From: an uncultured bacterium
GTDB lineage: Bacteria > Cyanobacteriota > Vampirovibrionia > Gastranaerophilales > Gastranaerophilaceae
Reading direction: 5' to 3'
NCBI GenBank assembly: GCA_949282215.1
Contig: CASDPF010000005.1
Coordinates: 1 to 64,000, forward strand
Length of the DNA stretch: 64,000 nt
Position 1 is the first letter of the stretch. Every line of letters begins with the position of its first letter. The position numbers were made by a program, and so were the translations under genes. Below are positions 35,252-52,948 of the stretch, in pieces. Under the pieces are notes generated by a model. The model was not told the origin of the DNA. It did no database searches and saw only the letters and a program-made list of their open reading frames with translations.

Positions 35252-35305
35252 TTAAATCAGGGTAGCCCCCCCCCCGAAAATAGTTGTTAAATCAGACTTT
35301 TGCAT
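35252..35305 (-). CDS. 17-residue micro-ORF containing a G10 tract
   Basis: MQKSDLTTIFGGGATLI. It has GGAG 9 nt before its ATG, and the three Gly codons come from a run of ten G. Gain or loss of one G changes only its tail (stop after a few codons, or about 35 residues). The layout ATG-x-AA-AAG-TC, about 30 nt, then poly-G is like that of the phase-disrupted prepilin at 47293. It may be a degraded or minimal relative of that leader, or a cis-acting leader peptide for the prepilin 160 bp downstream. Confidence 0.3.
   Translation of the reverse strand: MQKSDLTTIFGGGATLI
35266..35275. repeat. homopolymer tract C10 (G10 on minus strand)
   Basis: Ten C between the FkbM gene and the downstream prepilin gene. 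Such a run is very unlikely by chance in this AT-rich DNA. Runs of this length are prone to slipped-strand length change. Confidence 0.9.
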
Positions 35306-47292: not shown

Positions 47293-48175
47293 ATGAAAAA
47301 GTCAATTATAGCTTTAAAAACAGTCATGGGGGGGGGGCAACTCTAGGCAAAATTCAGATATAGCACTAAATTCAGCCAAATTTTTATATACAAAAACTCA
47401 AGGATTTACTTTAGCAGAAACGCTTATAACACTCGGGATTATTGGAATTATTGCAGCAATAACCTTACCTGCATTAATTCACAGTTATCGAAAACAACAA
47501 GTTGAAAATAAACTTAAATCAACTTATGTAATATTAACTCAATTATTTGAGCGTTCACAATTAGATAACGGGAAAATTGACAGTTGGCCAATTTTAAATT
47601 GGGAATCAGGAGAACAAACTAAATTCTATAACAAATATATTATCCCGTATTTAAATGGAGCCAAACAATGTAAAATAAATGATACAAAACGCATTTGCCA
47701 AACCGATATATACTCAGCAGACGGTTCACAACTGCTTGAATCTAAATATAATACTCACTACAAAATTATTTTACCTAATAATGTAAGTTTACAGATATTA
47801 CCACCTAGCCACGTATTTGCAAGTGATTCCGGCGGAGTACGCATGGAAATACGTATTGATTTAAATATCTCATCTGATAAAATACGCCGGGGAATAGACT
47901 ACTTTCAATTTGTCGCATTAAAATCTAATATTAATGATTTTACTTATATTGGTGCAGTTAAACCATACACAAATAACAAACAACACTTATATCTTCCAAA
48001 ATGTGACGTTATAGAAAACAGTGACTTTGTTATGTCTGATGGAACAAGAATTAATGCAAAAAATCTCTGCCTGAATAACATTGATGACAGATACGGATAT
48101 GGAGACATCTACTGTGCTGCACTCATACAATGTAACGGTTGGAAAATCCCTGACAACTACCCTATTAAATTATAG
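47293..48175 (+). pseudogene. prepilin-like gene (copy 4) put out of frame by a G10 tract; probably phase-variable
   Basis: ATG at 47293 with AAGGAGG 7 nt upstream gives MKKSIIALKTVMGGGQL and then stops, because ten G (47328-47337) put the rest in another frame. With nine G the frame runs through to 48175 (about 293 residues). It would read MGGGNSRQNSDIALNSAK, then TKTQGFTLAETLITLGIIG, a perfect prepilin cleavage site and helix. The downstream frame is intact for 275 codons and ends CNGWKIPDNYPIKL like its paralogs, so it is not decaying. The G count sets ON (9 or 12) or OFF (10, 11). This is seen directly; switching is inferred. Confidence 0.85.
47328..47337. repeat. homopolymer tract G10 within the prepilin leader
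   Basis: Ten G starting with the G of the second ATG. One base fewer restores the full prepilin frame. A sequencing or assembly miscount must be excluded. Confidence 0.92.
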
Positions 48176-48979: not shown

Positions 48980-50137
48980 TTACAATTCCATTTCCAAAAC
49001 ATCCGGAACCTTTTTAAAATTATTTTTTTTACTTCTGACTTTATCATTTTTTTTCTTAGTTTTAGCTGAAACTTTTCTATAAGCATTGTCTATAGAAATT
49101 TTTGATAACGGTTTTTTAGTGCGTCTGTCATAGAATGTAAGCCAAAACTTACGATTAATATTATCGACAGCAAATGAAATATGGCCTACTACCTTATCTC
49201 CGGGCTTAATCTGCTTGAACATAAGCTTTGTATCCCCGAAAATTGAAGGTCTGAACACTGCATTGTAATCGTTTACAAGAGCCAAATCCAACCCCGAGAA
49301 TGTTTTATCTGACATATTTGTAATCATTATTGTTAAAGTAATCGTATTAGCTTCACCGAATGGATCTTCCTCATGCTTAATATCACTTATCATAATATCC
49401 AACCCGGGATAAAACATTTCATGCTGCATAAGAGCAGTTTCACGATATACGGGCAGTGTTACAGAAGTATTAACTTTAACTTTTATCTCATCTCCCGGTG
49501 CAATAAGAACATCATGTCCTTTTCTCATAAGTGCAGCACCAAGTCCGATTGCCCCCCCTAATGCAGCACCGCCAGCCAGAGTATAACCCTGTGATGCAAT
49601 TGCAGCTTCAATTCCAAGCCAATTAAGGGCTAAAAAACCTCCGACAGCACCGCCTGCTACAGTATATCCCAAATCTTGCATAACAATTTTGGAAGTTTGG
49701 ACTACAGGATTTAACTTCGTAGACATTCTACCCTCTATAGGAATTTCTCTCCCATCAGGAGTAATTAAATAATCGAAATCCAAAGAAATCTGAGCAGGAC
49801 GTCCTAATCTTTTAGCAGCCTCAGTCTGAGAAATTCTACCATGAGCGATAGTTCCTTTTGGAATTATAACTCCGGAATCTCCTTCTACATCATTAACAAC
49901 TTCCGCAAAAAACTCATCCCCTTCTATATTAATATTAGAATCAAGCACTTGTGATACAGTCATATGAATTACATCAGAACGTTCAAGAGTCTCTACCTGA
50001 CCGGTAAACAATTCATCCTGAAGCTTTTGAAGCTGGTCAGTTTTCTCCGCATGTCCCTCAAATACCGGATCTGCATATACAAGGTTATTCATTGCTAAAA
50101 AAGCTGTTAATAAAAATAAAGCTATTCCCTTTTTCAT
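48980..50137 (-). CDS. secreted/envelope protein with Gly-rich membrane segment
   Basis: 385 residues from the ATG at 50137. Signal peptide KKGIALFLLTAFLAMNNLVYA. A domain with VIIPKGTIAHGRISQTEAAKRLGRP and ITPDGREIPIEG resembles part of the 36520 protein. A Gly/Ala-rich hydrophobic region (AGGAVGGFLALNWLGIEAA and AGGAALGGAIGLGAAL) lies near 175-215, and a beta-rich part near 220-350. Basic C-terminus (KTKKKNDKVRSKK). Function unknown. TATAAT ends 6 bp before the ATG, so the mRNA may be leaderless. Confidence 0.75.
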   Translation of the reverse strand: MKKGIALFLLTAFLAMNNLVYADPVFEGHAEKTDQLQKLQDELFTGQVETLERSDVIHMTVSQVLDSNINIEGDEFFAEVVNDVEGDSGVIIPKGTIAHGRISQTEAAKRLGRPAQISLDFDYLITPDGREIPIEGRMSTKLNPVVQTSKIVMQDLGYTVAGGAVGGFLALNWLGIEAAIASQGYTLAGGAALGGAIGLGAALMRKGHDVLIAPGDEIKVKVNTSVTLPVYRETALMQHEMFYPGLDIMISDIKHEEDPFGEANTITLTIMITNMSDKTFSGLDLALVNDYNAVFRPSIFGDTKLMFKQIKPGDKVVGHISFAVDNINRKFWLTFYDRRTKKPLSKISIDNAYRKVSAKTKKKNDKVRSKKNNFKKVPDVLEMEL

Positions 50138-50533: not shown

Positions 50534-50676
50534 TTACCAGTAACATCCGCCTTCAACTTTTTCGGCACCTTTCGGACGTTCACTTTCAAGAGGTCGAGTC
50601 CAATATTCATTATAGAAAGAATTTTCAAGTATATTGTCCCATCTGGAACCCTTTATACCAAAGAGTAATTGGGTCG
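50534..50676 (-). other. out-of-frame C-terminal coding part of the frameshifted glycosyltransferase
   Basis: In the +1 frame this DNA encodes ATQLLFGIKGSRWDNILENS and NEYWTRPLESERPKGAEKVE, stopping at TAA (50536-50534). It aligns with the end of the paralog at 51514. No stop codon interrupts it. Confidence 0.8.
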
Positions 50677-51462
50677 CCCCCCCCCGTGAATTGCTTGTCT
50701 TCCAAGTCCTTTTATGTATTGAGCCAAAAATATTCCATACGCACCTGCCCCTATTAATGCAATATCAAAATTTAAATTTTTTATTTTGGATTTCATATCA
50801 TTTAGTGCATCAAACCAAGTTTCGTAAGGTAAATCGTTTTTATTATCAGCAATACTCTGCACCGGTTTCATTGTAATAAGTTCAAATTCAGGCAATATAT
50901 CAGGATTAGCAAATAATTTTTCACGTTTTCTATATTGTTCTTGAATAGATTGTTCAAACGGATGGATTACTAGAACTTTTTTACCGCGTAATGCTCTCGA
51001 CCAAGGACGATTAAACCAAATTGGACAAATAGAGTTTAAATGCACCAGTTTAGCCGAATCTTTCAGATATCTGGTACACATTTCTTCTTCAAAAGGCCGA
51101 AACCAGCATCCAAGAATATCTATATCTCTTGTAATTGATATCATTTCGCAGGCAAACTTATTCAAATTATAATCATCAGTTGGGAAAAAGCCTGATAATG
51201 TTGACATTATATAACGCTGATTTTTGCTATAGCGTGTATTGTGATATCTATGTTCAAAGAACTGACGAACCGTATTCAATTCAGTACTTCCAAACCTACA
51301 AATTAAACAAGGCTCACCTGAGACTAGTTTTTCATAAATCAAATCCTGCGAATCATCTTTCAAATAAATAAATTTATCACCATAATAATCTTTGTGCAGT
51401 TGAGAAGCGTCTCTACCCCTAAAACGGTTAATTAAATTTTGAACAAACTTAACCCTTACCAT
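50653..51462 (-). CDS. GT-D-like glycosyltransferase, C-terminus lost by frameshift at G9 tract
   Basis: 269 residues as read. CRFGSTELNTVRQFF, NRPWSRALRGKKVLVIHPFEQS and DIALIGAGAYGIFLAQYIK resemble GT-D-fold (DUF1792-type) glycosyltransferases. It is a clear paralog of the gene at 51514. The frame breaks at nine G (50685-50677 on the minus strand), giving the wrong tail RPNYSLV. With ten G the frame would continue as GGGATQLLFGIKGSRWD and reach TYWTRP-like and CYW ends at 50534 (309 residues), closely matching the paralog's GGATQLLFGISGKRWD and MAYW end. The lost 40 residues are thus conserved and still intact. Phase-variable expression is likely. Confidence 0.85.
   Translation of the reverse strand: MVRVKFVQNLINRFRGRDASQLHKDYYGDKFIYLKDDSQDLIYEKLVSGEPCLICRFGSTELNTVRQFFEHRYHNTRYSKNQRYIMSTLSGFFPTDDYNLNKFACEMISITRDIDILGCWFRPFEEEMCTRYLKDSAKLVHLNSICPIWFNRPWSRALRGKKVLVIHPFEQSIQEQYRKREKLFANPDILPEFELITMKPVQSIADNKNDLPYETWFDALNDMKSKIKNLNFDIALIGAGAYGIFLAQYIKGLGRQAIHGGGRPNYSLV
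50677..50685. repeat. homopolymer tract C9 (G9 on minus strand) in glycosyltransferase gene
   Basis: The nine G encode the Gly-Gly-Gly of a conserved GGATQLLFG motif; the paralog uses GGAGGGGCAACT here without a long run. Ten (or seven) G restore the frame. Confidence 0.92.
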
Positions 51463-51513: not shown

Positions 51514-52458
51514 TTACCAGTAAGCCATTGTTCCGTTTTCAAAAAGTTCAACACCATCAGGCGTTTCTCTGACTGATGGTCTTGTCCAATACTGATTATA
51601 ATATCCACCAAAGCATGGATCCCACCTTTTACCGCTAATTCCAAACAAAAGCTGAGTTGCCCCTCCCATATGAACGGCTTTTTTACCGATTGATTTTGCA
51701 TATTGTGCTAAAAACATACCGTAAGCTCCTGCTCCGATAATCGCAATATCAAAATCAATATTTTTAATATCTTCTTTCATTACATCCAAAGCTTCAAACC
51801 AAGTCTTATAAGCCAATTTCTTTTTACTATACCCGATACCTTGAACAGGTCTGTATGTTATCAATTCAAATTCAGGTAATACGTCAGGATTTTTGAACAG
51901 CAATTCCCGCTTAGAATATTGCTTTCTTATAGTTTCATCAAAAGGGTTTATAACCAAAACCTTTTTCCCACTTAATGCCATTGTCCAAGGTCTTTCATAA
52001 AAGAACGGATAAGATATAACATCAATATCAACCAGCTCTGCATTAATTGAATATTTTTTAGCTGCAAAAAGCTCATATCTTTCAGACCGGCATGCCTGTA
52101 CATCAATATATTTTAAAATCTCCAACTGTTCACAGGCAAATCTGGTCATTTGATAATCTTCTGCAGGGAAAAAACCTGCAGTATTAGAAAATAAAGCCTT
52201 GTGCCACCTGTTATATTTCGGAAGCTTTCCCTTAGCTTCAAGCATTATACGCATAGTATCCAACTCTAATGTTCCGAACCTGCATATCATCTCAGGCTTA
52301 GGTGACAGAATATGCTTTTTTATAATATCCGATGCATCCTGACCTTTATAAAAAAACTTATTTCCAACTGTTGAAACATTTATAACCTTATGCGGGTCAA
52401 TCCAATCTTTTTTACCCCTAAACATATCCACAATATTTTGGACACTTTTAAATTGCAT
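51514..52458 (-). CDS. GT-D-like glycosyltransferase, intact paralog
   Basis: 314 residues. MICRFGTLELDTMRIML, FFPAEDYQMTRFACEQLEIL, ERPWTMALSGKKVLVINPFDE, DIAIIGAGAYGMFLAQYAKSIGKKAVHMGG (key DIAIIGAGAYG), then ATQLLFGISGKRWDPCFGG and a C-terminus ENGTMAYW. No membrane segment. Probably adds sugar to a cell-surface glycan or protein; the donor and acceptor are unknown. AGGAGG precedes the ATG. It is 51 bp upstream of its frameshifted paralog, a tandem duplication. Confidence 0.82.
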   Translation of the reverse strand: MQFKSVQNIVDMFRGKKDWIDPHKVINVSTVGNKFFYKGQDASDIIKKHILSPKPEMICRFGTLELDTMRIMLEAKGKLPKYNRWHKALFSNTAGFFPAEDYQMTRFACEQLEILKYIDVQACRSERYELFAAKKYSINAELVDIDVISYPFFYERPWTMALSGKKVLVINPFDETIRKQYSKRELLFKNPDVLPEFELITYRPVQGIGYSKKKLAYKTWFEALDVMKEDIKNIDFDIAIIGAGAYGMFLAQYAKSIGKKAVHMGGATQLLFGISGKRWDPCFGGYYNQYWTRPSVRETPDGVELFENGTMAYW

Positions 52459-52588: not shown

Positions 52589-52948
52589 ATGTTTAATTAT
52601 AGTATGACAGATGAAATTAATAAAAAAGTAACAAATATATTTTCAAGGCATAATAAAGACTTACCACCTGCAACTAAGGAAAAGGTCAAATTCTATGCCG
52701 GATTTAATTATGTCAGGATTGACAAAGATGCGAACGGAAACAAATTCAATTCTGAATTGTTACTGAAATATGCTAACGGATGTCATTACATAGTGAGAGT
52801 TATGCGGGAGTACAAAGGTGAGACCGTATTATACAATTACGATGTACCGAATAATGATTTATTTAAATTTATAAAATCTTTTGAAGAAAATACTCTTGAT
52901 GGGAAAATTATAGAAATTGAAAAATATTTTCCCGATGAATTAGCTTAA
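52589..52948 (+). CDS. small hypothetical protein upstream of radical SAM gene
   Basis: 119 residues (a second ATG at 52604 gives MTDEINKKVTNIF and may be the real start). Soluble: YVRIDKDANGNKFNSELLLKYANGCHY; ends KYFPDELA. No family recognised and no clear Shine-Dalgarno. It lies 12 bp before the radical SAM gene and is probably its operon leader gene. Confidence 0.65.
   Translation: MFNYSMTDEINKKVTNIFSRHNKDLPPATKEKVKFYAGFNYVRIDKDANGNKFNSELLLKYANGCHYIVRVMREYKGETVLYNYDVPNNDLFKFIKSFEENTLDGKIIEIEKYFPDELA

Follow-up and report, generated by a model that had tools for sequence, protein, structure and literature searches.

Genes and features at the locus

The window analysed here, that is the whole stretch of 64,000 nucleotides, belongs to a genome (G000 in what follows; 98% complete, 45 contigs) whose genus we take to be Ca. 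Scatousia. This genus falls within the Gastranaerophilales, the non-photosynthetic gut relatives of cyanobacteria. On the minus strand of the window lie two adjoining genes for a predicted glycosyltransferase, one of which is broken by a run of G:

50534-51462, minus strand: glycosyltransferase gene with a poly-G run, both frames taken together (ORF list, translations, homology before and after the run)
50653-51462, minus strand: the ORF as it stands, 269 codons, with its stop shortly past the run (ORF list)
50677-50685, minus strand: the run of nine G, G9 (sequence, run scan)
50534-50683, minus strand: continuation frame, 49 codons and a stop, under purifying selection (translations, dN/dS)
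51514-52458, minus strand: intact, run-free paralogue of 314 residues whose predicted structure shows a GT-D fold (ORF list, structure model, fold match)

The run encodes the glycines of a conserved C-terminal motif, which reads HMGGATQLLFG in the run-free paralogue and HGGG at the run in the interrupted gene. An earlier note on this DNA had placed the frame break inside GGATQLLFG, and the break is indeed found there, with G9 at 50677-50685 and homology resuming in another frame; the intact paralogue that the note had described next door is likewise present. The continuation past the run is GGATQLLFGIKGSRWD...GGCYW (codons 50683-50537, stop 50536-50534, minus strand). The note had expected one further G to restore 40 residues, and here the homologous continuation stands, while its length has to be corrected, as the 49 codons comprise two motif glycines and the 47 residues after them. 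The break sits exactly at the run and the shifted gene carries no other disruption. The gene thus has the run of at least nine G inside an ORF that marks a poly-G phase-variable gene, and run length sets whether the product is full or truncated, with the downstream frame conserved. A scan for promoters and terminators around the enzyme genes gave no excess over shuffled sequence.

Identity of the enzyme

The two copies share 48% identity before the run and 52% after it. Against the Pfam family PF22882 (GT-D-like) they score 25.2 and 25.5 bits with a gathering cut-off of 27, and against NCBIfam NF040628 (GT-D_rel) 21.9 and 25.4 bits with a curated cut-off of 75; since these scores lie below the cut-offs, formal membership of either family is not claimed. 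All 20 of the 20 aligned relatives match PF22882 at E ≤0.01, the best at 1.2e-8. The structure of the intact paralogue was predicted with a pLDDT of 93.7, and its closest solved fold is DUF1792 (GT-D; 4phr), with a Z score of 12.1 over 215 residues reaching to the C-terminus at 13% identity. Three DUF1792 entries score between 11.8 and 12.1, TagA/TarA between 9.4 and 9.9, and the next entry 4.1. A Foldseek search with the same model gave a best E of 3.1e-4. When the family profile was run against solved structures, the matches were all weak and came chiefly from NAD(P)/FAD-binding proteins (best E 0.0099). The DUF1792 fold and the Pfam score just under its cut-off support the note's call of a glycosyltransferase, and the structural model supports an enzyme of GT-D-like type.

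What would be lost with the C-terminus? Among 60 homologues the invariant or near-invariant positions after the run include Q269, F272, G273, R278, W279, N288 and W291, so the short form is without much of the conserved C-terminus. The 269-residue product is presumably inactive, as judged from these positions.

The enzyme family in related genomes

Fifty-nine genomes were searched for the enzyme family, and 13 have it. They are G000, 11 of the 12 further species in the genus, and a single genome from a different family of the same order. Species of the genus carry one, two or three copies, and in nine of the 11 these are flanked by the same neighbours on both sides, namely a radical SAM gene and the gene at 52589 on one side and the gene at 48980 on the other; G010 and G008 have synteny confirmed on one side. 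The nearest relative, G003, is 98.96% identical to G000 in the protein at 48980 and has a single enzyme copy that is 64% identical to the intact copy of the window, which indicates that alleles at the enzyme locus turn over faster than their flanks.

The run-bearing copy is missing from most species of the genus. Where the gene exists the downstream frame is kept, with 79-83% amino acid identity to two open orthologues, and the loss of this frame in relatives that the earlier note had named as counter-evidence is therefore not seen. When the shifted window copy is compared with these two open orthologues, dN/dS is 0.17 after the run and 0.10-0.14 before it, the former being a rough value that rests on 47 codons with high dS.

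At the same site the run is nine long and shifted in G000, ten and open in G005, 11 and shifted in copy 1 of G012, and ten and open in copy 2 of G012. In this comparison across three species the tract is thus of varying length (9, 10, 11, 10), where the earlier note had held that an invariant tract would count against a switch. In G002 this motif contains a run of eight, and the copy is open. A second site lies near the N-terminus, with runs of 12 (open) in G004, 13 (shifted) in G007 and eight (shifted) in G009, and a third is found on the Gastranaerophilales contigs L158 and L170, where the runs are ten (open) and ten (shifted). Over the three sites, four of the nine run-bearing copies are open, a count that leaves out the run of eight in G002. 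Three separate clades, each supported at 100/100, hold all the run-bearing copies except copy 1 of G012. In 53 homologous loci of other organisms there was no run of seven or more in the gene or within 150 nt of it. As judged from the gene sequences, the family is shown to have gained G runs independently, at two further sites in other lineages.

The exception in G012 appears to have its own origin. The two runs of this genome (7973-7983 and 8949-8958 on L055) lie in adjacent glycosyltransferase paralogues, and copy 1 groups on the tree with the run-less copies. Over about 120-150 nt around the run, however, copy 1 matches copy 2 at an identity of about 0.9, against about 0.55-0.65 outside this stretch, and its identity to its own orthologues drops from about 0.9 to about 0.65. 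Gene conversion has apparently carried the run into the neighbouring paralogue. With its run, copy 1 of G012 means that the counterpart of the window's intact paralogue would itself be switchable, and is shifted, in a sister species.

Runs of G across the genome and the lineage

The run in the enzyme gene is one of many. G000 holds 89 runs of at least nine G or C in 2.19 Mb, against about 0.65 expected from the dinucleotide frequencies of the window. The window itself (32% GC) contains eight overlapping eight-G matches, with a mean of 0.12 in shuffles, and its G/C runs jump in length from 7 to 9, 10 and 10. The longest A/T run of this 68% AT stretch is eight, while G/C runs reach ten; homopolymers look to be generally avoided and G runs kept.

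The same threshold was applied to 118 genomes altogether. Among the 72 from the same family, G000 included, the median is 12 such runs, and 28 genomes have 30 or more; for the 46 outside the family the median is two, with one genome at 30. Averages of 15-19 runs per genome are given at this threshold for N. meningitidis, N. gonorrhoeae and N. lactamica in PMC5953494.

The loci of all 89 runs of G000 were read, together with 30 each of G075, G021 and G012 and 20 of G033. Most of the runs lie at pilin-like genes, which are marked by an FTLAE motif. The exceptions include genes for sugars and the cell surface, namely Stealth-type, family 2 glycosyltransferase, RgpF-like and autotransporter-like (G17) genes, among them locus L213 of G075 and loci L295 and L310 of G012.

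Loss of mismatch repair was considered as the cause of the runs and rejected for G000, which has both mutS1 and mutL with scores over the cut-offs. Nor is there a general loss, as among 59 genomes mutS1 is over its cut-off in 52 and mutL in 53. A raised slippage rate is thus not explained by loss of repair.

Pilin-like genes and their reading frames

One such gene lies within the window:

47293-48175, plus strand: pilin-like gene with G10 at 47328-47337 between the start and the N_methyl motif, out of frame (translations, PF07963)

The earlier note had pointed to a switchable pilin 3 kb from the enzyme. A pilin gene is indeed there, with a start at 47293, the G10 and the N_methyl motif (PF07963) in a different frame; the link to the enzyme is unsupported by synteny. 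No pilin counterpart was found at the same place in the loci of 11 of 12 relatives, and in G003 there is a weak match of 22% identity. A connection of enzyme and pilin by synteny was accordingly rejected.

Pilin frames were scored where the run and the pilin share one open stretch and the start and motif criteria hold, other runs being left out. The 92 genes scored come from five genomes; 11 are in frame, and the remaining 81 are shifted, 60 as if by one G too many and 21 as if by one too few. Against equal thirds this gives a chi-square p of 3e-10, in a test that treats the genes as independent though many are related copies. The prevailing offset of G000 stays the same across run lengths of 10-12, and most genes of G033 have the other (12 of 15).

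Orthologous runs allow the offset to be followed between species. Thirty of the 48 run places of G003 were examined for orthology, and 13 runs have both flanks orthologous between G000 and G003, nine of them equal and four unequal in length. Frames were checked in four pairs, three pilin and one Stealth-type, and three share the same offset. The Stealth-type gene carries a G11 close to its start and is shifted by an identical offset in L098 (G000) and L443 (G003). In the fourth pair, a pilin, both copies are shifted, differently. For the pair L459/L022 the runs are unequal and the offset is nonetheless unchanged, because a base beside the run is different as well. Outside the runs, 15 single-base indels were counted in 11,769 aligned bases, and with four of the 13 runs unequal the runs are more variable than their flanks. 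A comparison of G007 with G009 yielded ten reciprocal pairs, two of them good, of which one has the same length and one a different length, too few to carry weight.

The pilin offset is therefore more regular than free switching predicts. This regularity fits either a mostly silent repertoire at equilibrium or expression that depends on slippage. The enzyme is unlike the pilins in that its copies are often simply open.

Explanations of the frameshift in the enzyme gene

The gene for the GT-D-fold glycosyltransferase is most probably phase-variable by reversible slippage at its poly-G run. Slippage during replication would alter the length of the run, such that a run of ten, as in the open copies of sister species, would give the full-length enzyme and a shifted length a protein without its last 47 residues and many of the family's most conserved positions. 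The state of the enzyme may then affect a surface glycan, where by analogy a protein or a surface glycan is a plausible acceptor. Such slippage would take place within a population. Phase variation is favoured by the combination of run lengths of 9, 10, 11 and 10 at one site, the retained dN/dS, the independent gains of runs, the conversion-like transfer and the genome-wide excess of G runs. There are counterpoints: the switch may matter little given the intact gene beside it, and with nine of the 13 orthologous runs between G000 and G003 equal in length, runs are not extremely variable.

Slippage could also occur during expression. If RNA polymerase or the ribosome reads through the run by slipping, the G9 allele would always yield some full-length enzyme with the DNA unchanged. 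The pilins lend this some weight, as their offsets are non-random (60, 21 and 11 of the 92) and the majority offset is common to both genomes in three of the four orthologous pairs, as slippage by a fixed offset would predict. The offset of the enzyme is not fixed, however, with four of its nine run-bearing copies simply open, and for the enzyme gene such read-through is unlikely. Less probable still in our estimation is a decaying pseudogene, a redundant copy with an irreversible frameshift. The adjoining intact paralogue and the absence of the run-bearing copy from most relatives are what such a copy might look like, but a dN/dS of 0.17 past the run speaks against decay, as do the want of any further disruption, the break exactly at the run and the existence of open orthologues with a run of ten. 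An assembly error, with the true run open in nearly all cells, is if anything slightly less probable again. Long G runs are hard to sequence, and in a report on Bifidobacterium breve the run length of the reference genome differed from that of the deep-sequenced main population (PMC9187656). Against this, shifted and open alleles are found in several independent assemblies and adjacent copies within the single assembly of G012 differ (11 against 10); a mixed population, moreover, would give the same picture.

Comparison with known systems

Glycosyltransferases switched by poly-G are classical, and what is new is the phylum hosting the probable enzyme switch. In Neisseria, pglA and pglI are glycosyltransferases switched by a poly-G within the ORF, of 9-21 and 9-15 G respectively (PMC5953494); the present enzyme differs in its GT-D-like fold, its phylum and the position of its run in a C-terminal motif, and its switching is predicted from sequence. 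The closest solved fold is that of the streptococcal dGT1 DUF1792 (GT-D, 4phr), which adds glucose to the adhesin Fap1 according to PMC5063993, but at 13% identity glucosylation of Fap1 is not to be assumed for the window enzyme.

For the pilin runs of G000 the nearest likeness is with the sortase-dependent pilus of B. breve, also a gut commensal, whose pilin gene is interrupted by a G run, the resulting two frames being joined by slippage. There the system is of another pilus type, comprises one or two loci per genome and was followed by deep sequencing (PMC9187656), whereas G000 has 89 runs. Campylobacter upsaliensis likewise has many coding-strand G runs, the variable ones in surface genes; its count takes runs of at least six, according to PMC539331, and the runs of G000 are dominated by pilin-like genes. 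In the open-access literature searched there was no account of phase variation in Gastranaerophilales, Melainabacteria or Vampirovibrionia.

What is known of poly-G switching in pili and surface sugars comes mainly from a handful of pathogen lineages and their relatives, and poly-G runs are now found on a large scale in gut bacteria that are related to cyanobacteria but do not photosynthesise. That one enzyme family has gained runs repeatedly and independently, and that a run has apparently crossed into the adjoining copy, is natural evidence for selection on switching of the enzyme.

A leader cassette and a possible wider system

The window holds one further run, of a different arrangement:

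35266-35275, minus strand: G10 in a short MQK-type leader ORF that precedes a separate pilin-like ORF (translations)

In G000, 65 of the 89 runs lie in such a leader, with MQK....IS before the run, which is G11 in 56 of the 65. The short ORF ends 8 nt past the run in 48 of the 65. A separate downstream pilin ORF is present for 57 leaders, 55 of which have CCTCC no more than 60 nt from the run; where a start was scored in a strict, hairpin-bearing set (56 copies), the pilin ORF begins mostly 143-153 nt after the run. In the consensus fold the G run pairs with CCTCC and is joined by a CCGTG/CACGG hairpin, a fold with no supporting covariation. An Rfam search with five cassette loci gave nothing over the gathering score. 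A 20-base motif of the cassette is found 58 times in G000, 35 times in G003 and once each in G006 and G007, with none in the 55 other genomes searched, and this concentration in G000 and G003 indicates a recent multiplication.

It is possible, though we hold the idea tentatively, that the enzyme belongs to a genome-wide system of G runs in the Gastranaerophilales that keeps tens of pilin-like genes in each genome out of frame by one nucleotide, with an offset that tends to be retained from species to species. Rather than by random on/off mutation of the classical kind, these genes might be expressed through slippage of the polymerase or ribosome, or might form a repertoire that is silent by default and from which rare cells draw one pilin. 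The leader cassette, of about 200 nt with its run ORF, a CCTCC that may mask the ribosome-binding site and a hairpin, would then have multiplied in the G000/G003 pair. The regular pilin offset poses a testable question, that of random switching against programmed slippage. An example of the leader reads MQK..IDRISGGGATN, and the cassette can be seen at loci L007, L085 and L111.
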